A stretch of DNA of 64,000 bases from Symbiodinium natans. Lineage: Eukaryota; Sar; Dinophyceae; Suessiales; Symbiodiniaceae. The position numbers and the translations under genes are program-made. Under the pieces are notes generated by a model. That model saw only the letters and a program-made list of their open reading frames with translations, had not been told where the DNA came from and made no database searches. Below are positions 16,558-42,915 of the stretch, in pieces. Within the stretch, counting starts at the first letter, position 1, and every line of letters starts with the position of its first letter. The stretch is from the NCBI GenBank assembly GCA_905221605.1, contig CAJNDS010002838.1, forward strand, positions 1-64,000. The letters are read 5' to 3'.

Positions 16558-17144
16558 GGTGGTGGTAGTGGTTGGAAAACCTTCTATTTTCTCGATCTTT
16601 TAATAGGAAAACCTCTATTTCTTCGTATTCCCACAGAAACCTCTATTTTCTTCACGTTTTCATAGGAAACCTCTATCATCTCTATGTTTCCATCGGAAAA
16701 CCTCTATTTGCATGTATTTTAAGACAAACTTAAACTTTTTAGTATCCCAATGGCTTCAACAAGATTCATAAAGCACGCTTTGCAGTGGCACAGCTTGATA
16801 AAAACGCGGCGGGGTTGGGGTTGGCGCAGCCCCCCCCCCCACCCCCCCCCCACTTGGCTTTGCAGCACGCTTTGCACAGCTTAAAAAAAACAGCGGGGGG
16901 GGTTGGGGGGGGCGCAGCCCCCACATGCGTAGAAGTGGTGGTAGTGGTTGGAAAACCTTCTAGTTTCTCGATCTTTCAATGGGAAAACCTCTATTTCTTC
17001 ATACTCCCACAAGAAAACGTCTACTGTCTTCACGTTTTCATGAGAAATCCTCTATTATCTCTATGTTTCCATCGGAAAAACTCTACTTCTACATGTTTTA
17101 AGCAAAAAACTTCCATTTTCTTTGCATTCCAATGGCTTCAAAGA
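16558..17144. repeat. Two direct copies of a ~210-bp repeat with ggaaaacctctatt subunits
   Basis: Copy 1 (about 16558-16765) and copy 2 (about 16934-17144) share the start gtggtagtggttggaaaacc and the end ccaatggcttcaa. Each is built of five or six roughly 30-bp units beginning ggaaaacctctattt. They are separated by G/C runs and a cagcacgctttgca segment. Confidence 0.85.
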
Positions 17145-18290
17145 ACAATATATAATACATACTACATAATATATAAAATATACTATATAATGAATAATAA
17201 ATAATAAATTAATTAATAATAAATAATATTATATATTTTATATATTGTATATTATGTATACAGTATATATTATATATTATATACTTTATATTATGCATTA
17301 TATGCAGTATATAATATGCAATATACAATACATGATATGCAATATATGACATATAATATACAATATGCGATATATAAATATATATTTATTTATTTATTTA
17401 TGTTTATTTATTTATTCATATTTATATTTACTTATTTATATACATACACATATCATATAATGTACGACAACATGAAATATAAATATAAATAGAAATATAA
17501 ATATAAATAATAATAATATATATAATCCCTATATATGTTAAACTATATATATATAATCTCAGGGTAAATATATATATACACATGATATAACTGATAATCT
17601 AAATATAATATATATATGCTATTTAGTAGAATAACAGATATATATAATATATAATATATATATATAATGTAATATATAGAATTATAACAATATATATATG
17701 TAAATATGTAAATATACTAAACTATACGAATCTAACATATATATATATAATATTAATTATAATAATATTATTATATATATGATATAGGATAGATGAAATA
17801 GAATATGAATAACAAATACATAGTACATACGACATAATAAATATATGATACATAATACATAATACATAACACATAATACATAATACAGAATACATAATAT
17901 AAAACATATAATATATAAATTCATACATAGTACATAAAACATAAAACATAATATAGAATTCATAATACATAATTAATACATAATACATAATACATAATAC
18001 AGAATATATACATAATACATAATACATAATACATAATACATAATAATATATAATATATAATATATATATATATAATATATAATGTATAACGTACAATGTA
18101 TAATGTATAGTATATAATAGGTAATGTGTAATGTAATGTGTATTATGTAATATGTATATATATATATATATATGCGCATACATACATACATATATATACA
18201 CACACGTTGACCTTCACTATCGTGTGTATATAATATATATTTATATTTATTGATTTTTACTTATTTGTCTAATTTATTCATTTATTTATA
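17145..18290. repeat. AT-rich simple-sequence block (~1.1 kb)
   Basis: Almost entirely A and T: TATA-, ATAAT- and ATACATA-type units of changing period, with no credible coding. The base composition differs sharply from the rest of the window. Confidence 0.95.
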
Positions 18291-18330
18291 CGCATAGGAC
18301 CCGCAGGACCAGGCGGACAGACAAGCAGAC

Positions 18331-24378: not shown

Positions 24379-25782
24379 TTAGATATTTCGCACAGGCTCA
24401 AGAGAGCCGTACGCCTGAGACTTCGTCTTCTGCTCAGGATCCAATAGTACATCGGGTTCATGCTCGTCGTCTGTCGCGAAGAGCGACAGCAGTGATGTAC
24501 TGCTGGGCTTGTCATCGGGATGACAACTTCCTGCCACTGCAGGCAGACATCGGGCGCTGATGAACAATAGCAGCCCAGCTGATAGCTGCACCACCAGCGG
24601 CAAGTGTAGGGATGCTTTGAGCGAGTGTGTTTTGTCAGAGAGCTTTCCAGTGAGCACTGGGGACATGGCAGTGGCAAAGCCCGTACAAAGAGTCTGAGTC
24701 GAGACCGCCAAACTGATCTGCGAGGAAGGAAAAATCTTTGCGACAAGCACTGTCAAGCAGACATTGCTCAAGGTAAACGAGGACATGTAAGCAGCTGCCA
24801 AGACAACAATGACGACGGCGCTGTGGATCCGAAGATCCAAACATATCACGCATGCCCAACTCGATGCCACAATCCCCAGGGCAGGTGCCAATAGCTCAAC
24901 GTTCTTGGTGTAGCTATCAAATGCCTTTGTGGCTTTGGCGCCGATGCTGCTGCCAAGGAAGGCGCCCAGCATGGCTGCACATGCGCATTCAAGGCCAGCT
25001 GCTTGGACATTTTGACCGTCGAACCGCTGCAAGAAGGTGGGGAACCAATCGGCTGCCGAGCTTTCGGCAAAAACGCTCATACTGCCAACTGCCGCGGCCG
25101 TCAAAAAATGCAGGTTGGAAAACATTGACCTGTATTTCGCCCAAAGCGAGGAAGTCTCCTCGTCCACAACGCTATCCACAGTATCGTTAACGCCCTGCTT
25201 GGGCTCTCTGATGAACTGCAGTGCCAAGCCAGCAATGAGGCAGGGCACTCCGACAGCAAGCACTGCTAGTCGCCAGCCAGCTGCCTCCGCGATCACCGCC
25301 GCCATTGCATAGCTAAACGCTCCGCCCAGCAAAAAACTCAGTTGGTAGAACGCGATGACGTAACTTCGATCTTGAGTCGGGTAGTAATCCACCAGCACAG
25401 ACGGGAAAGTAATGATGGCGATAGAGTATCCTCCTCCAACAAAGACCCGAAGCAAGCACAGATGTCCAATGCTTGGCACGCTGGCTATCAAGCAGGTTGC
25501 AACGGATACCACTGCAGACGATATGGTTAGAATCAGCCGCCGATTGAGACCTTTTCGGCTCAGGAAAAGGCTGGATAAGGCTGCAGCTACTAGTGAGGAG
25601 ACTTGTGTGGCGGACACTGGCAGAGCTGTTTGTGCGTCCGTGCACCGAAGCTCGGCCTGGATCTGGGCTTTCAGCGGACTGAGCACATTCAGAGATGCCG
25701 AGAGCAAGGAACCTGCGAAGAGAATCGATAGCAACGCTCGCCTTGCACCAGCCTGGCGATACCCAACGACCCTCTGTTCCAT
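24379..25782 (-). CDS. MFS transporter, about 12 membrane spans
   Basis: A single uninterrupted frame from ATG at 25782 gives 467 residues with about twelve hydrophobic segments split by a central soluble loop near residues 200-225. MFS signs include LSRKGLNRR after the second span (loop 2-3) and LLRVFVGGGYSIAIITFPSV in the fourth span. The overall look is of the major facilitator superfamily, perhaps Spinster- or phthalate/hexuronate-like; the substrate cannot be read from sequence. The frame is open upstream to 25869 but without another ATG, and a 14-base C run lies just before the chosen ATG with a tttctag acceptor upstream that could serve trans-splicing. No introns are present, in contrast with most genes here, which could mean a retrogene. 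Confidence 0.85.
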   Translation of the reverse strand: MEQRVVGYRQAGARRALLSILFAGSLLSASLNVLSPLKAQIQAELRCTDAQTALPVSATQVSSLVAAALSSLFLSRKGLNRRLILTISSAVVSVATCLIASVPSIGHLCLLRVFVGGGYSIAIITFPSVLVDYYPTQDRSYVIAFYQLSFLLGGAFSYAMAAVIAEAAGWRLAVLAVGVPCLIAGLALQFIREPKQGVNDTVDSVVDEETSSLWAKYRSMFSNLHFLTAAAVGSMSVFAESSAADWFPTFLQRFDGQNVQAAGLECACAAMLGAFLGSSIGAKATKAFDSYTKNVELLAPALGIVASSWACVICLDLRIHSAVVIVVLAAAYMSSFTLSNVCLTVLVAKIFPSSQISLAVSTQTLCTGFATAMSPVLTGKLSDKTHSLKASLHLPLVVQLSAGLLLFISARCLPAVAGSCHPDDKPSSTSLLSLFATDDEHEPDVLLDPEQKTKSQAYGSLEPVRNI

Positions 25783-28900: not shown

Positions 28901-31040
28901 CCTGGCATCCGAGCACGCTTCGTATCGCTTCATGAAAAGACGGGAAGACAAACTGGATGCTACAAAGAGGCCGAGTCTCGTCCGCTACTAAGGCATCAAA
29001 GGCACATTGAGTTTCATCAGCTCGCCGCAGGGCAAGTGAGTGATACTGCCTCGAAAAGACGGTGGAGGTGCAGTGGTGGAGAAAACCACCCACACACACA
29101 CACACACACACGCGCGCGCGCGCACACACACGTGCACATGCGCCCCCGCGCACGCGCTCACCCACACCCTCGCGAACGGGCACCCCCGCACCCCCCTACC
29201 CCCGTACCCGCACGAGCTCGCACAATAACACGAGCGCACTCGCAACAAATCAGATTCCTCTCCTGCCCCGCCTTCAGGTGCGAGGTTGCTGGCGTTCCTG
29301 TGGGGGGCCACCGAAAACATTCTCGGCGTTCGAAACTGCGCTTCTCGCAACTCACAACAGCAATTACACACCTAAGACGCTGAAACTCCACTTCCCTGCC
29401 GACGGGCCGCCGGTGTCTTCCACTGGGGTGTTTCTCCAGCTCCAACATGTCATGCGGCCCCTTCAAGGCCTGGGAGTCGGAATTGACAGCCCTAAGAACT
29501 ATAATGATAATGAGAATCAGAATTCTTCCATACTAATCATGGTTAAATACTGGACTAGTAATACCAATAATTGTTCTCTTCCTGCCTGCAGTCAGCTCCC
29601 CTCGCTATCGCTGTCTGGTTCTACATGGGTTCTACTGCACCCTATCCATCAACCTGAGGTCGACCAACGCCCGGCACAAGTCCTGAAAATCTCGATTTCA
29701 GGTTTGGTGCTGACTCCAGGAGCTCCCCAACTCTGTTCAGCCTGAGCACACATGAGGCACGGCCAGCGATCTGTCTTTGTAGCGGGTGTTTACGGTTCTG
29801 TGCTCCGGCAATCCCAAGACAGATGCGGCCTCCTGGCACGCTGTGGGGCGCAGAAGAACAGAAAGATCGCGTCCCAGCCAAGGCACACACTGCGCTGCAA
29901 CAACACGCCGCCTTGCGCCACAAATGATTTCCAGCCTCGATGTCCCCAATCCATGAGCACAAGTGTATTTGGAGCACTTTTGTGTGATCTAGGTGCAGCT
30001 GAAGAGCTCTCACCGCTGGTTTCTGCCACGCAGACGTCCTCTTTCGGGGTTGTTTCTGCCAGTGCCTGATTCTCCATACTTCGCCGTACATGAGCTGCAT
30101 CGGAAACAATCTCTTACACTGCTTCCTGCCGCAATATGACACTACAGATGCCGCCGCGACCTCCAGAACTACCACTCCGACACCATGTGCCCAGCATGTC
30201 GGCGCACAAAACTAGTATGCCAGCATTCCTGGACCAGTTGACAGAACACCGAATGCCCTGCACCGAGGTGCCAAAGCAGAAAGAACAACTAGTATCCTCA
30301 TGTCTGGCATGAAGGAGCGGTTGAAGTCCTTGGATGGAAGGCGCAAATGGAACCATCATCCACCTCCCATGGCACTTGAAGCAGCCTTTCAAACGCTCAA
30401 ATCTGATAGCCATGCTGCCCGGCGCCCATTGAGCGCGGCAGGAAGAAGCCTTCGCGTTGAGCTCACTGTTGGCCATTAACATGCCAAAGCTTTGAGCACT
30501 GACACATCACAAGACTCACAATAAATACTCCATAATACTCCCCTTCGGCCTTGTAAGGTTGTTTTGCCAAAGTGGGGACCACAGAGGCACCCTGTTGAGC
30601 CCAAATTGGCCGCTTGTGGGTGCAGCAGCGTCAGGATCGTCTGCTTGCTGCTTCTCATGCTTCAGGTTTAGGGCCAGATTAGGGCTTGGAATTTAGGGTA
30701 ACTTGGGGGGTGCTGCAGTCTGAAGATACCCTCTGGCACATCTTCGCTAGGCCCGGTCAGCAAGTGTAAAATGTGAATCCATCAATGCTCCATAAAGCGC
30801 AGGCGTTCTCACAAAGAAAGGGCGATTTTCCCCATGCCTTGTGATGACATGCAAGGACGCTCGGCATATTCCGTCATCTGATGGTTGCCCTCTTGTTGAA
30901 CTGTTGAACCCAGAATACGAGTACATGCAAAATATTCTGCGAAGATGTTCATTGCTTGCACCATTCTGTGCAGGGCGGGAATTTTCCAGACATGCCTGTC
31001 GGATCGCTTCATACATGGTGGGTAATTTTGGTTCAAAACT
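25990..31040. other. Region with weak exon-like readings only
   Basis: Between Sm-D2 and the MFS gene several minus-strand stretches look protein-like (WVQAAIIAWAAVVAASVLL near 26.2 kb; MALQPGSAVFVTLGEVSRHY at 28.25 kb; NSELNAKASSCRAQWAPGSM at 30.47 kb) but none is recognised or joined by splice sites I trust. (CA)n with CG runs lies at 29088-29135, and TTTAGGG-like units near 30665-30700. Confidence 0.3.
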
Positions 31041-31047
31041 TCCCAGC

Positions 31048-34000
31048 TCACTTCGGATTTCGAAGCACAAGAATGACCTCATGGCACGAACGCATTGCCG
31101 CTGATACCGAGGGGCTGTGCGGCAACCAGTCAGGCGTCACTTCTGGCCCCGGAGCCAAAGCAGGAAACTACTGGAGCAGGATGGTAGTATATGATGCTCA
31201 CATGATGCTGGCTGCATAGCCTGTGCTGATCACCACCGCGATTGCACACTATTGTACCAACTTGCGCAATTCCAGTCTCAGGCCGAGTGTCCGAATCGCC
31301 ACGCAGAAACATCTTGCTAATGAAGCCTGGGTAGCAGTGGTCGTGCAGGAAGCTGGAGATAGTGAGGCATAACAAGCAAGGGCTTCAACGGTCCAACGGT
31401 GATCAATGGTGGGGCTTTGTTCACTTCCTGATCTCCTGATCTGCATCTTTGCCAGCAAGGCACGATCTTTGTTGACCGGCTTGGCCTTCTTCTTGCCCCC
31501 ATGCCTTGCTTGGAAACACATGCTGCAGACACAAAGACATGACACTAAAACAAACATACGTGCGTCAGAGCACACAGCGGGAACGGGGGGGTGTCAGTGC
31601 AAAAACTCACTGCCCTATCGCATGTCCATTGTCAGTCATCGACGATGCATGGGCATTGGAGCATGCCCATTTTCAACTCTTCTGTTGCAAGTGCAGGACT
31701 TTTGCTAGGCCCTGTATGGCCCTGTCCTCGTGATCGATACTCTCCATCCAACACCTCTGTACCAAAGTGATTCCCTTGAAACCTTTTGAAAGCTTCAGCA
31801 GCCCAAACTTAACCGGCGGTGCCGGGAACATAGTCTGAAGTTCGTTCATCTGCAGCTGAGCGACGGCGTCTCAGTCCACATCTCCCTGGCGCAAAAAGGC
31901 AGCCGCCCATTCTTCATCTGCTTTGTTGCATCACCGTCCCGAGTCCCGAGGACAGAAATCACAAGATCCCCTTCCCCCTGCCTCACATTCTCCAGGACCA
32001 TGTTTGAGTGCCGGTCGAACGCCTTCACTCGGGCCAAAATCTTCCGATTGTTGCGGCAGTTGATGAGCACCTGAACTGCAATGCGCTGGGGTGCCTGCCG
32101 ACAACTGTCAATCCCTGTCCTGGCTTAGGAGTCCCGACGCCGCTCAAACTTTCTCGCTCCCAGGCGCCTGCGAATTGTCCTTGACACACTTCTGCAAGAC
32201 AGACCTGAGTCGCATGAATCGCATGAATTGATATGAATTGCATGTGGCCTCATTCTGAGTGAAGTACGCTGCAATCGTTTACAGAGACACTCCCACTGAC
32301 TCCCACAAGCTGCCATGCCTCATGTGACACATGTGTGCATAGCTTTTTCGCTTCAGAGCCCATCGAAGAGATCCGCCATTTCAGCAGCTTCCTCGTTCAA
32401 GTCTTCGTTCACAATTTCAAGGCCCGTGTGGCAGTACCCTGCACAGTCCTCCACCTCGATGGCTACATCTTCCAGGGGCAAGAACTCCCGCAGAAGCCGC
32501 AGCGTGGCGGGGGCGATTCGGGACTCGACCGCCTGCCTGCAGTTAACCAAACCAAACTCATCTAAACCTGACAACATTCGTGGCTTCAAGGTTCCCAAAA
32601 CTGTTGGACCCACAATATCTCTCACAATGATCCCAGCAGTTACAATTAAAGTAGCACGCGCGTGCAGGTCCGAACCCATGCAGGGGCCTGGACGTTCGTG
32701 AGAAAGGATTACAAAATGACTAAATCTTTGGTTAGTTTCCAGTTGACAAAGAAAAGTGTTGCTGGTATGGGGCTGGTGCTGTTTACGCAAGCACCAGAAA
32801 TCACAAGCATGTGGTAACTTCAAATGATAGATGGTGAACCTCCGACATAACACGCAGAGCCATGCTTGCTTAGTGCTTACGGACATCGGGCTAGGTTGGG
32901 CGCGATCGGTCCCAGTCCGGATGCCTTGTAAGCAGAGTTTGCATCGCAATCAGGAGTACTCTTAAGGTTGAGGTTGGTGCTCCTGTGCTCCCCAACCGAA
33001 GCACTGAATCAGCCAAGTTTGGCCGGAGGGAACCCGCGCAAGGCAACGTGCATGCCCCTTTCGAACCACAGGTACTACCAACCAGGCGCTATACATTTGA
33101 GACTCTTCTGGGCTTAACTTTCAGCACCACAATGTACCACAGCAGTTGCCACTTGCAGAAGAAACCCCCATATGAGATGACAACTTAAAAACAGAGGCGT
33201 CCGGGAGGTCCGGGGGGGCCTCTCTGCGCTGTGCAGGTCCAGGGCCGCCTCGAGCGCCTCGGAGGCCTCGAAGGCATCCCGCAAGGACTGCGCCAGGAGG
33301 TCGCTGTACCAAACCTGCCACGACTCGCTCCGTGCTCCCCCCCCCACGCTATATTGAAAACACACATCCAATATGCCGCAAAGTTATAAAAAGGAATTGG
33401 GGCCCCCATAAGCACCGTGCACAGGCATCTCTGCCTTGCAAAAGGCTCTAAGCTCAGGGGGCTGCTGTCGGAGTATGCGAACCACCTTGACAACTTGCTC
33501 GTCGTAGGACGCAGAGGCCCGCAGCGGGGCAGGAAAAGGGATCTGCGCCTCACCCTCGAACCACAGATTGATGCCTGGCAGCGTGCACGCTGATGGGGAA
33601 TTCTGAGCTCATGAGACCATGTGCTGCAAAGATCTGGGTCGGCGGCAAACACGGCCAGCAGCTCCATGGAAGGGCCGCACACGATGCAGTGTCGTGCATG
33701 ACGAAAAAGCAACAAGGCGTCTATCCAGCGGCGGCACGCACGAGTCCGCAAAAGGGAATGGGAATATTTCCACTTCCCCTCCATCACCCTCCGTCCAGTC
33801 CGGGTTGAGGTATAACAAAACGGTCAAAACCCGCCGCGCATCAGAGCTTGCAGGCAGGTCGAAGTGGCAGGGAAACGCCCCACCAGAGCCAGAGTTGACC
33901 TGCACCTTGGCCTGCTCGAGCCGATCAAGCTGCAACCTGGTTTTTGTTCCACTTGGTTCCACTGATATGGGTTATTTAGGGGTTGCCGTAGAAGCTACAA

Positions 34001-37000
34001 ACAATTTCCAAATCAGCCCGGGTGACCAGGAGCTGGTCGCAAGGTTGAACATCTTGCGCAGCTGCATCTCCTACAGGGTTATTTGTCGAATGGGTTGAAC
34101 TCTTGGCATAGCTGGGCACATTGGAGAGTGGGTGTCTAGCAAACTTGTTCTTTTCCGTGATGCTATTGCTTCTGTAGCCTTTTCGTGTAGCATTCTGTCA
34201 AACAAAACCTTTGCCTGGTAAAAGCACATTTTATCTCGAAAAAATCTTTTCGCCTAGAAAAATTACACAATTTACCTGGGGAAACTTAACATCAACAAAC
34301 ATCAGCATTGTTCTCTGAATATTTAATATCGTGCTGGGACATTCCACATAGAGATTTGCCCTATGCTGGCATATCGGCCTGTGAGGTGGGTGTCCCAATG
34401 GCTATCCTTCGCTACCCGGTGCTAACGAACCCTACACTGTCGGACATGAATTCAAGTCTTGATTATTATTCTGCTCCATGTGCGCATTCGTCTCCATCTT
34501 ACCTTTTTCCAAACATGGCTTGAACAAAGGCATGTCGCTTGGGGGGGTTGCCAATATATATATATATATATACATATATATATGGTATATATATATACAT
34601 GTATATGCCAAGCCTGTCCGAGTCCAGGCCTTGCGTGCAAGGCGTTGGGTTGGACTAAGCTTTTCAGCAAGTCTGCGGAAGTGAGTCTCACGTGCAGATG
34701 GACACGTGCGACATGATTTCCGCGCTGAAAAGTTTAAGGGTACGACAGGCTTCAAGGGCCGCGGCCGCTTGTTCAAGATTCAGCTCTCGCCATGAGTTCT
34801 CAAACCCGATCTCGGCGACTTGCTCCCTCCGTTCTTCTTTGGGCGTCCTGGGCCAGCAGCGCCGACAGCACCGGGCATTTCTCCAGCACCTCGGGGCACT
34901 GCACAAGGCCATCGACGATCACGTCAGCCTCGTAGACATGGGGCTTCCTGAGCTTTGACACAATAAGCTGGTCAGTGGCCGTGGTCTCTGCTAGGATGAC
35001 GGTTGAGTCGGTTACATGTGTTGGGGGCGGGCAGGGGCGTGTCGGAACAGCCGGGTCGGGGAACGGGGCAGGCTGGTGCTGGAAACGCTGGAGGCCGAGC
35101 CGGGAATGCATCGAGCACGCGTGTTGGAAATGAGCCTCCCAAAACTGCAACTTCGACCTTAGACTCCTGAGGTCCTTTCCATGGGTTAGGGGGCATGTTA
35201 GGAGTGTAAAGAAGGAGCCCTTCGGACCCCTTTTTTTGCCACCCGTCTAGCCAAAGCTCCACGGGGCAACTACGGGGCAACTGCTGCTGGAGAATGCTTT
35301 AAGAATATTTTTGGGTTCAGGATTTCGGGCTTGGGGGTACCTCAGGGGTCTAAGGTCGAATTCCTGCAGAAAAGGCATGCGTACGTTGCAGTTGGGGAGG
35401 GCCCCCGGTCACCTCGCACCTCGGGCAGGGCGTGTTGCGAACACGCCCGCGCCCAACACAACCCTGCGCAACCAACACGACTAACATCCGTCTCTGCTAC
35501 GATAAAGTGCAAACAAACAAATTACTGGTGAGAGGACGTGCGAGTACATGCAGGCAAATACAGAGGCAGACCATAGCAAGCCCAGAGCCGCGAAACACCC
35601 AGACGGTTGCACCCTTCAGCTAATTCCACATGATATCTGGCAGATAGACGACCGACAAGCAGACAGGATGCATTCCTCAATGTATGTTTCCTTGCACTGG
35701 CGGCCTCTCAAGGTCTGATGGCTTTAAGCTATGCACGCCTCCATCATTGCATGTCGCTTCCTGAGACGAGTCGAGCTGCTTCTGCACTATGCCCCCGCGG
35801 TGGCCATCAGAAGTTCCTCACAGAAGCTCATCACTGGACAAGAAGGGTTACTACTACCCGACTTGACTAGTGGCAGCTACTTGATTGGCAAACCCCTCTT
35901 GCTTAGAGATACCGCGCAAGGGCATGAATCTGCCCTCAAGTGCCAAAAAGCACGACCAATGAGAACCGAACCGTTTTCCCTGCCCCATACTTTTGAGACC
36001 CTTGCAGGTTTCCAGCAACTGTTTGGTTAAGCTTAGGATGCAAGTTACGAAAACCGTTGAACTGTCGAAGGAAAGCCGGCACCGAAACATGGAAGCCCTT
36101 CCATCATCAAATATCGAAGAAGCAGGGATTTGGTGTAAAATGAGCCAGTTCCTTCCCATTGCATAAACAGGCACTGCATAAGCGTGCACTGGAGACTGCC
36201 AAGCTTCTGACGGCCAGCTTGTTTCCGCTTTGTGTTAGCAAGCCTTGCTCGAAGCAGTCCTAGCGCCATGGGAGCCGAATCACACACACCAAAGGCCCTA
36301 AACGCCTAAATGTGGTTTGTGGTAGCTGGTAGGCTCGTAGGGCGAAAATGAGAGCAAGATCCCGCCATATCCCGCAGCAACGCCAAGAACCTTCTCAAAA
36401 CTTGTCAAAACACAAAGGCTCCAAGATCTCTCGGCGCACGTCCGCTGCAGTCTCTGCCGCCCTTGACGGTTTTACTTCTTAAGACTCTTCAACTCTTCCT
36501 TTTAGTTTCCATCGACTTGCGCTGCAGGGTGTTATAGCTCATTGCGTGTACTGGCCTATTGGATTTTAAATCCAAGCCGAAGCCCAAGGCTGCAGAGCCC
36601 AGGCACACCGCGTCATCACGCATCCACGTGCCACGCTCTTCCAACGCTGCAGCCGCTGCGCAGCCAACATGTGCCCACATATCTGACATGTCCTACCGGT
36701 CGTATCGGTTCTATCTGAAGGGCCCTCACCATCTGCAAGGGCCTCGCATATTGTGCAGTGTTTGTGGCAAGCTCTCATCCTTCTTGGTTCTAACTCATCA
36801 CCCAATTCCAAGCACCTCCAGAAGCTGCAGTGTATATGGCAAGTCTGTAGAGCTCGCAGGGAGAGGTTTGAGCTGTGAGGTTTGAGCTGTGGCTGATGGC
36901 TCGATTCTGATGCACCAGTTGGAAAGAAGGGGAGCTCAGCAAACGTCTCTCCGACTCGAAAGCTGCAACTCACTTCTCTTTTTGTTCCACCGGTCAGGCC

Positions 37001-40000
37001 TGCAGAACATCTCTTTGCAGGGTCATACAGTCATACAGAAATACGTATATAAGATATACTATGTGGTTTCCCCTATGCCGGCTCCCGGCTCATCTTGGCT
37101 CATCTGGCTCGCGGCATGGCGCCACTCAGTTCCGCACCCGCGTTCTGATTCGGTTGTCTGCAGGGTCCTCAGTGACTCCGTGCTCTGAAAGCTGAGGTGC
37201 AGATGCGAAAGGGCGTCCATGTCTTTGACCAAGCAAATTAAATTGAGATAACGTATTCACAGCAAACAACAAACAACAAAGAGAGAGAGAGAGGGGCGAG
37301 AGCGCCGGAGAGTGGATGAATGCACAAGGAGCTTGGAGAGCGAGAGACTGAAGTAAGCGAGTTAAGATGAAGAAAGAAAAGAGAGAGAGAGAGAGGGAGA
37401 GAGATGAACTGGTGAGATGAAAGGGTGCGTTGTGACTGCGTTTGCACAGCAAATGCCTGAGTGAGGCGAGCACGCGTGCAACTCCCTTGAACTATCTTGA
37501 ACTGCTTCCCCCCCCCCCAATGGGTCACTTGGCGGTCCTTCAGCGACAGGTGACACACGCCGGCCTTGTCGCGGAGGGTGGGGATGGATGGTTCGGCTTC
37601 TGGATGCTTCTGGTCTATAAGAAGTGGCACCCGGGGCGTGCTACGGAGAGAAATTTGCAGGAACTATTTGCATGCTTCTTGCAGCTGAAAGGCAAGTAAG
37701 AGCTCCAGAATGGTGAGGAGGTTGTGCTGCCACTCCGGTGGCAAGCAATGGGTGACCCCACCAACTTGAACCAGGCCAATCAAGCCTTGCCGACCATGTA
37801 TGGTGATTCACCGACATGAGCTCAAATCGACGTTGACTTGCCTTGCTAGGTTTGGAATGTGCGCCCTGCTCTGGGCCAAGTAGCACATGGTCATGCGAAG
37901 CAGGTCGCTGCTCATGCGGACCTTTTGTCAGCATGGAGTTCAACATCGGCCCTTGCTCGAAACTTTGTGCTTTCATGAAACCCCCGGCCTGCTCAAACTG
38001 GACCCTGTCGATGCTCCAGACCTTTTCCTCGATCACTGCCATGCCCCAGAAGGTATACATCATACATCCCAAGCTTCCTGCAATCCTGAGCTCGTGGTGG
38101 AGGAGTCGTGGATTGAGGTCTTTTTTCCACCTTAACCTCCAAGCCTAGCACAGCTGCATCCTTGCATCGCTAGCTCAAAGCGCACTATGCAATAGCCACA
38201 TGTTGCGAAGCCTTCATGCCACAAGCAAGAAGTTAACATCCACAGGCGGGATAACCTTCTTCCCGTGGACATCTGGCAGTCGTCCTCTACCCTGCATGCC
38301 GCACGACAGGCGACGCTTTGAAAGTCCGAGCACTATTGGAGCTGAGGCACAGCCCTCCTTTGTATACAGGAGTCACAGCAATCACCGCCCCTGCTGCGAA
38401 TAGGTTGAACATCGCCGCCGGCATCACGCCGTGGATTGCTATCTGGGCTATCTCGCCGGTCTCCTTTGTATCGACTTTCTGTGTTCTAAATAGTCAGTAT
38501 GCGGATATGGAAGCCTGGAGCATTGCGCACACAGGCCCAGGCCCCTTGTTTGCAAACTAGGCTCAGATGCTTTGGAGAACGTCCCCAGGAATGCCCTCGG
38601 TTAGCTCGACACAGACAGCTGCAGCATGAAGGCACCAAACGGATCCGAGGGGCACGACCAAAGGCATGCTGACCGCATCCGACAGGTAGTGTACTGCAAC
38701 CACCGCTGCACCAGCAGCCGGGGTCAAGTCCACGAGCTTCAGTGCCAGATCCTTGCTGCCAAAGCATTCCACCGAACAAGCTGCGGTTGGGTACTCTACC
38801 AGGACTCTACCAAACCTGGATCAGACTTGACAGCCCCTGTCTCGGCTCCGTTTTTTGCCACCTGCCTAGCTGACACTTTGGACGCGCTGCAGGGCACTGG
38901 GAAACCGTTACTCTGGTCGTGCGTTAAGTTCAACAGCAAAGCTTGCTTGCGCACTCCTCACGGCAACCGTCCTGCTGGTCTGTCAACAGAAAAGCACTCG
39001 CAAACCCTGACTGGGCTCATCCACAGGGTAGGTACTATGACCAACATATTCAAAAACTTTGGCAGTGGAGGGGCCCCAACAAAGCCAAAGGTGTCAAGGT
39101 TGAGCGCGATGACCTCACGCAGCGCGCCGCACCTCAGGCCAGGCTCATGGCGGCATCCAAGCTTAGCCAGAGCCCCCGCAACAAACTCCACTCATTAGAG
39201 CTCTTCAAGCCCTCTCAACCTAAACTGCCTCAGCTCAACCTCTCGCCAAATACAATTTCAGCAAGGCTCGCCATGGCGGCCGCAGCCAAGCGCATGGGCG
39301 TGCGCGGCTGCTTGTCAGGTAGACGCTTGGCAATACCTTGTTGACCGGCTGTCGGTAGGGTTGAAAGCTTGAGGAAATCATGAGGCAAAGGCTTGGAACA
39401 AGACCTTGCAACAGCCTCACTGTCACGATATCCGAAACCTCGACTCGGAGAGTTTGGTTGAGTTTGATTGCCGCCGGGTGGCTGTAGGAGAAAGCTACCA
39501 TACCACCCGCAGCCATGCTGTGAAGCATCCTATGCATCAGGGGCTCCGATCACAAACAGTCGCTTTCGCTGGATGGCCAGCTCGTATACAGCCAAGATCA
39601 GCCAAGAAGCAAGGCACCGCCGGTGTAGGCCTGTGGAAACATGAAGAGACCCTGCCGCGGAAGTTGCAAAAGTGCAGAGAACACGGCCTTGGACAAAGCC
39701 ACTCCAGTGGGCCAAATGACTGGATCAACCTGGCGAAGGACGGGAAAGGTATGCATTGGATCAGCATCAACATATTGATGAACACGCAAACATGCTTGGC
39801 CATCCCACAAAAGCGAAGTCGGAGACACCATGTGCGCATGCGCGTGTGTGCGCACGAGGTTTGGTCGGCGGGCGGCGGCCCCGATGCAGAAACCCAACTA
39901 TCCTCAAACACCAGAACCCAACAATCCTTAAACCTGAGGCAAGTGGCTGTATTCAAGAAAGCACCAGTGAGAACGATCATGGGAAAATCCAGCCAGTGGT

Positions 40001-40669
40001 CTTGAAAGGTGGCTAAGTCCAATGGTCCATGGCGCCCTTGCCTATTCATCTTATACGCCTCGCATCTGGACATCTTTTGCGGGTCCAAGTCGACTGGAAT
40101 CACACCGGTTTCTGAATGCGGCAACTCGAGCGGCCATTCGTCCAACCCATCGCCATGGCTGGAATTCGGAATCGCTGCGGCCAAGCAATCGTGCAATCCA
40201 TCCAAGATATCCAGGCCGGTCACCACGAACGGAGCCAAAGGCCGACGCGCTGTTGGCCACACCGAATCGAGGATGTCCCGGACTCTGTGCACTCGATCGG
40301 CGGAGTCGATTGCAGCCATGCCGGCAAGCTGAGCTTTCTTCACGTCACTTCTTGGGTTAAAGACACAAACAGTTGCGTTGAGTGTTGAAGCTTGTGGCTG
40401 AAATCGATGGACATGCGCGCCACAAGTGGCAACTGGTGTTCCTCCTGCAGAATTGAAAAGTTTCAGGCTGTGGCTGCCTCTTGCGAGTGACGGCATGCTT
40501 GATCCGATGTTTCCAGGCAACGACAAAGGTTCCACTCAGATTGCTCTCCCACGCGCAGTGCGACTCAGAACTGACTCAGCACAGCAGGGTGTCCAGCCGA
40601 GTTCTGAGGCAAGGACAATGGCCCAACATCAAAGTTATCCTTCTCTTCCACCTTGGCCTCTTCAGCCAT
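31048..40669 (-). CDS. Spliceosomal Sm-D2 protein, seven exons
   Basis: Seven exons rebuild a complete 101-residue Sm-D2, a core subunit of the Sm ring on U1, U2, U4 and U5 snRNAs. Exons: 40669-40617 ([17 protein letters not shown]), 32204-32168 ([12 protein letters not shown]), 32070-31982 ([20 protein letters not shown], then HSNMVLENV), 31885-31865 (EMWTETP), 31504-31464 ([13 protein letters not shown]), 31326-31292 ([11 protein letters not shown]) and 31077-31048 (VILVLRNPK, stop). All phases match. Donors in order are GT, GC, GC, GT, GT, GA; every acceptor is AG. The RVKAFDRH and FLRGDS motifs are the Sm1 and Sm2 signatures. The first intron is 8,412 bases and contains other same-strand exons. 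The start Met is the only one in frame. Very sure of identity; the placement of exon 1 is inferred from perfect phase and family match. Confidence 0.9.
32353..33936 (-). CDS. 2-oxoglutarate/Fe(II)-dependent oxygenase, C-terminal part
   Basis: Four exons in consistent phase: 33936-33653, 33574-33423, 33314-33223 and 32536-32353 (stop). The first has the double-stranded beta-helix core: [16 protein letters not shown] supplies the His-x-Asp iron ligands, [20 protein letters not shown] follows, and TLHRVRPF supplies the distal His; an Arg of the 2OG-binding type is created at the 33653/33574 join ([10 protein letters not shown]). The tail is acidic ([27 protein letters not shown]). Donors are GT, GT and GA. 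It resembles prolyl-4-hydroxylase-type enzymes, but the substrate is unknown. It lies wholly inside the first intron of Sm-D2 on the same strand. The N-terminus is missing; exons at 35.0-34.7 kb are candidates. Confidence 0.75.
34560..34603. repeat. (TA)n-rich microsatellite
   Basis: Run of tatata with occasional c or g, giving Ile/Tyr-repeat frames. Confidence 0.8.
34691..34992 (-). CDS. Putative exon with an apparent frameshift, unknown
   Basis: One minus frame reads [20 protein letters not shown] then [14 protein letters not shown], and directly after it, one base out of frame, comes [18 protein letters not shown] then [18 protein letters not shown] to a stop at 34691. Both halves look like real protein, but no intron fits between them. 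It could be a decayed or mis-sequenced exon, possibly the N-terminal part of the neighbouring oxygenase gene. Confidence 0.4.
35100..38280. other. No confident gene; intronic or intergenic
   Basis: Inside the long Sm-D2 intron. (GA)n tracts lie at 37279-37400. Readings here are ambiguous between frames. Confidence 0.35.
38300..39191 (-). CDS. Exons of an unrecognised membrane protein
   Basis: Three strongly protein-like minus-strand pieces: about 39191-39030 ([20 protein letters not shown] then [20 protein letters not shown]), about 38744-38563 ([20 protein letters not shown] then [18 protein letters not shown]) and about 38429-38300 ([18 protein letters not shown] then [19 protein letters not shown]). 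At least three hydrophobic segments are visible. The third piece follows an acceptor aaag. I do not recognise the family. All lie within the first Sm-D2 intron, upstream of the oxygenase, and could be one gene. A further piece ([12 protein letters not shown]) near 39.27 kb may belong. Confidence 0.5.
39537..40535 (-). CDS. Long open frame, possible exon, unknown
   Basis: A 332-codon minus frame just after Sm-D2 exon 1. The upstream two thirds look coding ([54 protein letters not shown]); the last third is Cys/Phe-rich and looks like intron. No domain recognised. A competing frame at 40260-40051 is also open. Confidence 0.4.
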   Translation of the reverse strand: MEPLSLPGNIGSSMPSLARGSHSLKLFNSAGGTPVATCGAHVHRFQPQASTLNATVCVFNPRSDVKKAQLAGMAAIDSADRVHRVRDILDSVWPTARRPLAPFVVTGLDILDGLHDCLAAAIPNSSHGDGLDEWPLELPHSETGVIPVDLDPQKMSRCEAYKMNRQGRHGPLDLATFQDHWLDFPMIVLTGAFLNTATCLRFKDCWVLVFEDSWVSASGPPPADQTSCAHTRMRTWCLRLRFCGMAKHVCVFINMLMLIQCIPFPSFARLIQSFGPLEWLCPRPCSLHFCNFRGRVSSCFHRPTPAVPCFLADLGCIRAGHPAKATVCDRSP

Positions 40670-41182: not shown

Positions 41183-42484
41183 TTATGATGCTGCTGCGAA
41201 TGCCGCCGCTTCTACTTGATTAGCGGCAGATTCCGCAGAATCGGAAGCTGGAAAGTATGGAACTTGGAAACTGAGTGGTCGATAAAGATGATGACAACTC
41301 GCCCGCCGAGAATACACCCTTGCGCTCAAGCGGCTTGGGTAAAGCATCACGCGGCATGGGGCGCCGAATGCCTGTCAGAAATTTCATTGCGGTACTGAAC
41401 TCAACTTCTACGTGAAACAATTCCACGTACACGACTGCAGGGGCATCACAATGATTCATTTCATCTGCTGCGACACACACACACACATGCTATTTGACAC
41501 GGCACAGACGGCACAGAGGAGCACGGGCAGTCACAGAAACTTTTCCCCAGCCTTTGGAGGGATGTTCTTCACAAACTTCGCACGCACAACGCCCGAGTTG
41601 CCGTGAGAGCGGCGAATCTGTCGAGGCAACCGTTTTTTCAGGGGATCTCTGCTGCACGAAGCAAGAGCTTCATTACCGGCCACAACACGAAGCTCAAGGT
41701 CTCGTCCTTGCAGCTCTGTTCTAGAATGGCTGTCGCAATGGCTTCACTTGGGTTTAGTGTAGTCGGCCTTGAAACTGTTGCGCATGCTTTACCAAAAGCA
41801 CTGGAGCACGCAGACAAGAACTGCGCCTTGCCCCACATCACTCGGAACTTGCTGTGCTTCACCTCCTTCTTCGCCTAGCTCTGCCAGATGCCGCGAGCAC
41901 TCGATCTATGGCGCGAATGTATTGGCGTGCCCAAGCTATGTACATACTGAGGCCTTGTAGACATAAGCCACACGCTTGCCGATGTAGAACTGCGTGTCTT
42001 CCTGGCGGGATCTGGCTCCGATTGTGGTCTACTTCTACTACACATGCCCAGACGTGCCGATAACAAGGAGCCAGTGCACACCTTGGTTCGAACGCCATCA
42101 ATCTTGAGAAGGGTGCAGCTGGCGTAGCAGTTGGACTTGCTACGCTTGTAACCTGGCAATGACTCAGGTCCTCTAGACGACGCCCCACGAGCATCAAGAC
42201 GAAATCATTCTTCTTTACGACTATATATCACGTAAAATCGGATTTGTCTTGTTGGACTGCCCAGTGCACCAACTTTTTGACCTCTTACATCATCAGGCTT
42301 GCAGCAATTGTCGCGCCTTTGACAGCCGTGATGGTAAGAAAGAATGACGAGCTCGATGTGTCGCCCAAATTGAAAAGAAAAACGAAAGGAAAAAGAATGT
42401 TCCGAATGCTACACAGAAGCCCAGGATCAGGCCCTTGGCATACAGCCGTACCGGCTGCTTCGTCTTCTTGATGAACTTCTTGGC
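41183..42484 (-). CDS. 60S ribosomal protein eL33 (L35Ae), six exons, first exon missing
   Basis: Exons: 42484-42421 (KKFIKKTKQPVRLYAKGLIL), 42152-42082 (YKRSKSNCYASCTLLKIDGV), 42001-41948 (TQFYIGKRVAYVYKAS), 41874-41827 (KEVKHSKFRVMWGK), 41617-41552 (RRSHGNSGVVRAKFVKNIPP) and 41371-41183 (AFGAPCRVMLYPSRL, then onward). Together they cover eL33, a protein of the large ribosomal subunit, including the invariant HGNSG and the RVMLYPSR terminus. Donors are GC, GT, GT, GC, GC; all phases agree. After YPSRL, where the family normally ends, the frame stays open for about 47 residues to TAA, so either a C-terminal extension or an unrecognised last intron exists. A candidate N-terminal reading (EGEAKPAGK) near 42.59 kb has no in-frame ATG. 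Confidence 0.9.
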
Positions 42485-42915
42485 CTGCAACACTCTGCAA
42501 GTCAGCTTCCCAGTCACCGTTATCAAGTCAAGTCAAGCTATGTGGCCCTGGCAAGCCCGGATGCATTCTCGGCCTTTCCCGCTGGCTTTGCTTCACCTTC
42601 AACATGATCGCAAGTGACATGTTTATCAAGTGCCCTGCAGGCCCCGGTCTCAACAAACGTGCCTGCCATGACGCCTACTTCGCGAGGCGAATTGCGTCCG
42701 CTTATGTCCGAGCCATAAGGCACCGAGAAGCACGGGACACCATTAGCACCAGTATTATGAAGAATTGGGAAGACAACCACTTGCAAGTCACGTTGGCAAG
42801 GCCGAGGCATCTGTCTATTTGTCCTCTAAACGGGCACGAACGGACAGACAAGCGACACTGCAGCCCTGCTAGCAATGCTAGCAAGTAAGCGCAGAATTGT
42901 TGTCTGGGCATTATC

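Follow-up and report, generated by a model that had tools for sequence, protein, structure and literature searches.

An Sm-D2 gene of Symbiodinium natans with an 8.4-kb first intron that looks to hold a same-strand oxygenase gene

Introduction

On a contig of the dinoflagellate Symbiodinium natans (GenBank assembly GCA_905221605.1, CAJNDS010002838.1), what appears to be the first exon of an Sm-D2 gene lies more than 8 kb from the second, and a sequence-only reading placed other genes of the same strand, an oxygenase and a membrane protein, between them. This raises three questions: whether the two parts form one gene, what the intervening block encodes, and how a splicing gene could be expressed across it. 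Here we address these questions by analysis of the window, i.e., the whole stretch of 64,000 nucleotides from position 1 of this contig, to which all coordinates refer unless stated otherwise.

Results

Splicing of seven exons on the minus strand of the window (40669-40617 and 32204-31048, Table 1) gives an intact protein of 101 amino acids with its stop codon at 31048; the splice donors are GT, GC, or GA, and the acceptors are AG. The best PDB match of this protein is SmD2 (E 7.5e-45), and Pfam detects an LSM domain (PF01423, E 2e-17). Among 17 matched sequences, it scores 154 bits to SmD2 (1b34_B) versus 34 bits to the best LSm3; by these comparisons, the protein is Sm-D2 and not another Sm/LSm protein, and a putative member of the Sm ring of the spliceosomal snRNPs. 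As the sequence-only reading had proposed, exon 1 (40669-40617), which ends in phase 2, continues in frame into exon 2 (32204-32168), and the first intron, estimated there at about 8.4 kb, measures 8412 bp. That reading had also seen no competing first exon, and our search of the window in all six frames of both strands bears this out: the peptide of exon 1 reaches a score of 88 at 40669 and no more than 30 at any other place, which rules out an alternative first exon near exon 2. A protein search of the whole genome found no further first exon on this contig, although the same search missed the intron-split first exon of the second Sm-D2 gene described below.

Table 1. Positions of the features discussed, in window coordinates. 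The training set for the codon scores included four segments from this window and, in part, related oxygenases.
Feature	Position	Strand	Remarks
Sm-D2 exon 1	40617..40669	-	17 residues + 2 nt; GT donor; kept in paralogue
Sm-D2 intron 1	32205..40616	-	8412 bp; GT...AG; phase 2; position and phase as in paralogue
Sm-D2 exon 2	32168..32204	-	GC donor
Sm-D2 exon 3	31982..32070	-	GC donor
Sm-D2 exon 4	31865..31885	-	GT donor
Sm-D2 exon 5	31464..31504	-	GT donor
Sm-D2 exon 6	31292..31326	-	GA donor
Sm-D2 exon 7, including stop codon	31048..31077	-	
Oxygenase exon A (KPHVYEAD...)	34845..34987	-	GC donor; 5' boundary inferred; codon score 11.3 (34824-35000)
Oxygenase exon B (FPCHFD, LHRV)	33647..33929	-	GC donor; codon score only 5.7
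Oxygenase exon C (INLWFEG)	33435..33574	-	GC donor; codon score 7.4
Oxygenase exon D	33228..33314	-	GC donor; codon score 12.1 (33222-33326); aligned to paralogue
Oxygenase exon E, including stop codon	32353..32532	-	codon score 13.1 (32356-32562)
Coding-like segment in a 332-aa ORF	40047..40331	-	codon score 11.5
Proposed membrane-protein exons, two short ORFs	38287..38820	-	unsupported
Dispersed repeat pieces	34992..35489	-	other copies in genome
Dispersed repeat pieces, partly AT-rich palindromic	34252..34614	-	other copies in genome

Contig C2455 of the same genome carries another Sm-D2 gene, which is absent from the sequence-only reading. Its product is identical to the window protein at 100 of 101 residues, and its frame continues for 12 residues beyond the end of that protein. 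Codon by codon, 52 are identical, 48 differ synonymously, and 1 nonsynonymously (NG86: dN 0.004, dS 3.1, the latter saturated); for the 17 codons of exon 1, these counts are 7, 9, and 1. The counterpart of the giant intron sits at exactly the same position and in the same phase (2), but it is only 264 bp long (C2455:247394-247131). The window gene has six introns and the C2455 gene has seven, two positions of which, including that of intron 1, are common to both, whereas the other five C2455 positions are missing from the window gene. The same exon 1 followed by the same phase-2 intron in C2455 indicates that the distant exon 1 of the window is real and long conserved. This conservation may, however, all be older than the expansion of the intron and is therefore no proof that the gene works with one of 8.4 kb. 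The argument that a housekeeping gene must ignore the end signals of inner genes is weakened, since the compact C2455 gene encodes practically the same Sm-D2.

With a second gene present, the window gene could be a dying copy that was recently split: after insertion of a block into intron 1, exon 1 would now be joined to exons 2-7 inefficiently, with C2455 supplying the protein. The length of the intron also fits this view, as 8.4 kb far exceeds the mean intron lengths of 388-658 bp given for four Symbiodiniaceae genomes in a passage of PMC7245778. Against it, the frames, donors, and acceptors are intact on both sides of intron 1 and the exons show no visible decay; we therefore consider a dying copy unlikely.

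Within intron 1 and on the same strand, five phase-matched exons (34987-32353) join without an internal stop into a second protein, of 276 amino acids. The spliced product matches PF13640 (E 7.9e-15, 56 bits versus a cut-off of 27) and a prolyl 4-hydroxylase of solved structure (6iuq, E 3.6e-25), and it is 36% identical over 233 columns to a paralogue encoded by a single ORF on contig C2377. Oxygenases of the 2OG-Fe(II) type hold iron and 2-oxoglutarate by a His-x-Asp motif, a distal His, and an Arg or Lys; the HFD, LHRV, and R of the inner protein line up with both 6iuq and the C2377 paralogue. Exon E lies outside the aligned part of the paralogue and was assigned by its phase, open frame, and codon score. 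The identification of the inner gene as a 2OG-Fe(II) oxygenase of the prolyl-4-hydroxylase type is thus well supported at the level of predicted protein. The oxygenase exons extend farther upstream than originally noted, to 34987, and their stop codon, also within the intron, is followed by a gap of 148 nt before Sm-D2 exon 2. The 5' end of the gene was not located: four attempts to find an N-terminal exon gave nothing above background, a search that a short divergent exon would escape, so the gene could be an incomplete copy. One candidate picked by eye (36689-36561) was not among the 15 best segments window-wide. Thus, an oxygenase gene appears to lie largely or entirely within intron 1 of Sm-D2.

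It is also conceivable that the intron is simply long and contains relics, i.e., an oxygenase copy that has lost its N-terminal part and ORFs that arose by chance, with nothing inside it expressed. The fruitless search for an N-terminal exon agrees with this, as do the dispersed repeats adjoining exon A, the background codon scores of two of the five exons (5.7 and 7.4), and the lack of relatives for the remaining inner ORFs tested. However, the five exons are free of frame errors and internal stops, the His-x-Asp, His, and Arg align to the solved relative, and three of the five exons reach codon scores of 11-13 (with training partly on related oxygenases). Relics alone are, in our view, quite unlikely.

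The inner genes of the sequence-only reading thus survive for the oxygenase and not for the membrane protein, whose exons at 39.2-38.3 kb have no Pfam match and codon scores (6.5-6.7) comparable to those of the reversed-sequence control; those at 38.8-38.3 kb, the only ones searched in this way, have no second copy in the genome. Nearer to Sm-D2 exon 1, a coding-like ORF around 40331-40047 is plausible. This segment matches nothing in Pfam or the PDB and has no further copy elsewhere in the genome, and its protein has no assigned family; it may represent another gene within the intron, or else an exon of the oxygenase gene upstream of exon A. Throughout the window, 12 of the 13 segments with codon scores of at least 10 are on the minus strand, so the surroundings resemble a one-way gene array. 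An Rfam search gave no matches at gathering scores, and a promoter and terminator scan of 32100-32500, built for bacterial sites, is uninformative on this DNA.

As to the origin of the block, no second copy was seen among the 40 of 780 first-look candidates that were scored. Apart from the window itself, the 65 other listed matches to the 8.4-kb block are short repeat pieces, and a surviving source from which it was duplicated or transposed was not found among them. Nor was there a mark of retrocopying: the 21 nt of what we take to be the dinoflagellate spliced leader had no match with up to 3 mismatches, and its last 15 nt had 5 matches against 3.1 expected by chance.

An assembly artefact would have set an unrelated block between Sm-D2 exons 1 and 2. 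The dispersed repeats within the block might mislead an assembler, and transcripts were among the data used to scaffold the S. natans assembly, according to a passage of PMC8045281. However, the window has no N, and exon 1 and exons 2-7 keep their order and orientation. Insertion of the block requires two wrong joins; for one false join at a repeat to suffice, two more Sm-D2 loci would have to exist, and outside this contig only C2455 gave Sm-D2-like matches. The repeats, of about 0.5 and 0.4 kb, are also short relative to the PacBio subreads, 5 kb or longer, described for S. natans in the same passage (PMC8045281). We judge an artefact very improbable. Joining in trans of exon 1 and exons 2-7 from separate precursor RNAs, which has as its one support the spliced-leader trans-splicing known from dinoflagellates (a passage of PMC11453091), is hardly credible, as its C2455 counterpart is an ordinary short intron and the two halves of the window gene follow each other in order on the same strand.

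Discussion

The sequence-only reading called such an arrangement very unusual, which is too strong: in Polarella glacialis, also a Suessiales dinoflagellate, 6.5-8.4% of genes are nested in introns of multi-exon genes (PMC7245778). The passage in question also describes many one-way gene clusters, to which we liken the surroundings of the present locus, and a nest host that is putatively an alanine-tRNA ligase, a housekeeping gene like Sm-D2. It does not give the strand of the nested genes, which here is the same as that of the host, and its pipeline allowed intron-nested genes only in introns of more than 10,000 bp, by which an 8.4-kb case would be missed. Unlike the Polarella hosts, the window host is a spliceosomal gene with a compact twin. 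A literature search revealed, by title, no second study of nested genes in dinoflagellates. The nested arrangement is therefore neat but not new in kind, as intron-nested genes are already common in a related dinoflagellate.

A more distant comparison is with human nested genes and intronic L1 elements, a mammalian and non-homologous case; to our knowledge, mammals lack spliced-leader trans-splicing. In humans, about 63% of nested genes are oriented opposite to their host, so that roughly one in three shares its strand, and inner units can disturb the RNA of the host through exonization, retention of introns, and cryptic polyadenylation, as stated in a passage of PMC3192792.

We think it likely that the Sm-D2 gene of the window, the genome's other one being on C2455, is functional, that its ancient first intron has come to enclose a same-strand oxygenase gene, perhaps together with a second gene of no assigned family, and that Sm-D2 is cis-spliced across the block. 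Most probably, the locus is an unremarkable dinoflagellate case of gene nesting, with competition between the splicing of Sm-D2 and the processing of the gene inside it. For Sm-D2 mRNA, exon 1 would be spliced to exon 2 over the whole block, and the oxygenase gene would be removed with the intron. Oxygenase mRNA would arise from separate transcripts, its 5' end provided by a promoter of its own or by spliced-leader trans-splicing and its 3' end formed, most simply, within the 148-nt gap that follows its stop codon. On any one precursor RNA, the two outcomes would be mutually exclusive. That both RNAs are made, and in this manner, we infer from the gene structures. Polycistronic expression appears to be rare in dinoflagellates, according to a passage of PMC11453091, which speaks against an inner RNA cut from one long shared transcript.

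Since Sm-D2 belongs to the splicing machinery, one could also imagine that the locus acts as a sensor. Scarcity of Sm proteins would slow splicing of the 8.4-kb intron, the oxygenase would be processed and the Sm-D2 precursor truncated, and the balance of the two mRNAs would report or tune splicing capacity, with the compact twin giving a constant base level of Sm-D2. We regard this as highly improbable.

For genome annotation, the locus is a warning, as a rule that limits nested genes to introns above 10 kb, like the one used for Polarella, would miss the nest or split Sm-D2. For dinoflagellate biology, the Sm-D2/oxygenase locus offers a clean, checkable case of apparent same-strand nesting, in which the C2455 twin, whose intron at this position has 264 bp, can serve as an internal control for the effect of the inner gene on splicing of its host.

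Structure of the Sm-D2 gene

The window is the first 64 kb of the 263.7-kb contig C2526, in a genome assembly of 759 Mb and 2543 contigs. The sequence-only reading had joined the first exon of the minus-strand Sm-D2 gene to a second exon more than 8 kb away, and our analysis confirmed this join exactly. All six introns end in an AG acceptor, and their donors are, in order, GT, GC, GC, GT, GT, and GA. This mix of donors, like the one-way gene order, is in keeping with a dinoflagellate genome. Among PDB entries, the 101-aa product matched SmD2 chains at up to 154 bits, versus 34 bits for the best LSm3. That reading saw no second first exon near exon 2, and the whole window contains no rival: the first-exon peptide scores 88 at 40669, and the runner-up scores 30.

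There are no N positions in the window. Intron 1 (32205-40616) matched the rest of the genome only piecewise, within 35489-34992 and 34614-34252 (scoring covered 40 of the 780 initial candidates), and the sole match elsewhere to the stretch 30000-32400 was 45 bp of a second Sm-D2 gene on contig C2455. Misassembly of the intron is judged unlikely: it would take either two wrong joins that both happened to fall between exons of the same gene, or one wrong join fusing two further Sm-D2 loci.

Exons of the Sm-D2 gene and of the oxygenase gene within its first intron
Feature	Position	Strand	Codon score
Sm-D2 exon 1	40669-40617	minus	
Sm-D2 exon 2	32204-32168	minus	
Sm-D2 exon 3	32070-31982	minus	
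Sm-D2 exon 4	31885-31865	minus	
Sm-D2 exon 5	31504-31464	minus	
Sm-D2 exon 6	31326-31292	minus	
Sm-D2 exon 7	31077-31048	minus	
Oxygenase exon A	34987-34845	minus	in 11-13 range
Oxygenase exon B	33929-33647	minus	5.7 (background)
Oxygenase exon C	33574-33435	minus	7.4 (background)
Oxygenase exon D	33314-33228	minus	in 11-13 range
Oxygenase exon E	32532-32353	minus	13.1

Candidate inner genes of intron 1

Within intron 1, the five exons of a 2OG-Fe(II) prolyl-4-hydroxylase-type oxygenase gene join in phase to give 276 aa and a stop, with a GC donor in all four introns and with boundaries picked by hand to suit phase and homology. The product matched PF13640 (E 7.9e-15), the solved prolyl 4-hydroxylase 6iuq (E 3.6e-25, residues 14-221), and a single 328-aa ORF on contig C2377 (36% over 233 columns); the iron-binding and 2-oxoglutarate residues align with those of 6iuq. 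Exon E falls outside the 6iuq and C2377 alignments and was assigned by phase, open frame, and codon score. In the C2377 relative, some 60 residues precede KPHIYEAD; a matching oxygenase exon was looked for and not found. The 5′ end of the oxygenase gene may lie in 35-40.6 kb, in which case the gene would be fully nested, or may have been lost. Directly after exon A, an open minus-strand frame (34691-34849) looks helical-repeat-like by eye; a genome search with it returned no further copy at E ≤ 10.

A 332-aa ORF (40535-39537) includes a segment (40331-40047) with a codon score of 11.5; in the reversed-sequence control, one segment reaches 10 over 128 kb (both strands). For this ORF, Pfam gave nothing at E ≤ 10 and the PDB no match, and the genome showed no second copy (one hit, E 0.3). 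The short ORFs at 39.2-38.3 kb, previously read as membrane-protein exons, are unsupported: they scored 6.5-6.7, the reversed control has 42 segments at 6 or above, and neither a Pfam relative nor, for the ORFs at 38.8-38.3 kb, a second genomic copy was found. Judged by sequence, we count in intron 1 one supported inner gene, the oxygenase, one plausible candidate, and one unsupported, the membrane protein.

A second Sm-D2 gene and the age of intron 1

A genome-wide search with a provisional Sm-D2 protein returned six matches. C2526 and C2455 accounted for two each (exons 1 and 3 on C2526), and the remaining two, both weak, fell on C2061 and C1773; other short exons, including the first exon of the C2455 gene, were missed. 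The C2455 gene lies on the minus strand (247675-245854); its last exon was assigned by eye, and its frame extends 12 residues beyond the end of the window protein. Of the 101 shared codons, 52 are unchanged, 48 differ synonymously, and 1 differs nonsynonymously (NG86: dN 0.004; dS 3.1, saturated); for the 17 codons of exon 1, the corresponding counts are 7, 9, and 1. Such codon comparisons indicate that the duplication is old and that selection has kept both copies, the distant exon 1 of the window copy included.

The two genes (six introns in the window copy, seven on C2455) have two intron positions in common, one following nt 53 in phase 2 and the other following nt 90 in phase 0. Five positions are unique to the C2455 copy (245854-247675) and four to the window copy. 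The predicted structures indicate strong intron turnover between two copies that encode nearly identical protein. The intron after nt 53 is the giant one, 8412 bp in the window versus 264 bp in the paralogue. Since its position is common to both genes, the intron predates the duplication, and either the great length is peculiar to the window copy or the shortness to the C2455 copy.

Surroundings of the locus

Under a codon model trained on 1777 codons from outside the window, mostly those of related oxygenases and the C2455 Sm-D2 gene, the window has 14 minus-strand and 4 plus-strand segments with scores of at least 8, and three of the latter sit opposite minus-strand segments. Immediately upstream of Sm-D2 exon 1 is a ribosomal protein eL33 gene (41300-42500, minus, several short exons), which in a hand-joined reading matched Ribosomal_L35Ae (PF01247, E 8.7e-34). 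Given this strand bias and the minus-strand neighbour, Sm-D2 appears to be part of a one-way gene array. Elsewhere in the window, two similar-looking minus-strand EF-hand segments (PF13499; 51526-51954 and 54093-54428) are perhaps neighbouring duplicated calcium-binding genes, and an MFS transporter segment (PF07690, E 4.8e-12) lies at 25159-25398, minus. The stretch 17100-18300 is extremely AT-rich and of low complexity (GC 0.164 in 17001-18000), and short gaccacgggaccaga-type repeats run on from it to about 18520.

Proposed expression and relation to known nested genes

We propose that splicing of Sm-D2 exon 1 to exon 2 would take out the whole intron, and that oxygenase mRNA would derive from precursor molecules with other processing. 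Its 3′ end would fall within the 148 nt that separate the oxygenase stop codon from Sm-D2 exon 2; otherwise, the transcript would continue into the Sm-D2 exons. A 22-nt leader may be added to dinoflagellate mRNAs by trans-splicing (PMC11453091), and such a leader would supply the 5′ end of the inner gene; an own promoter is equally likely, because polycistronic expression, according to the same source, appears rare in dinoflagellates (PMC11453091). Effects of nested genes on their hosts described for human cells are exonization, intron retention, and cryptic polyadenylation (PMC3192792). By analogy, we expect Sm-D2 mRNA to be partly lost, a loss that the compact twin would make tolerable.

In two isolates of Polarella glacialis, 4898 and 3359 nested genes (8.4% and 6.5%) were reported by a pipeline that permitted inner genes only in introns >10,000 bp, and a putative alanine-tRNA ligase host gene held 15 nested genes in three introns, with full-length transcript support (PMC7245778). 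The word "nested" is absent from the main text of the S. natans paper (PMC8045281). The Sm-D2/oxygenase nesting is a further case of an already known arrangement, and its worth lies in the twin gene, which serves as a natural control.
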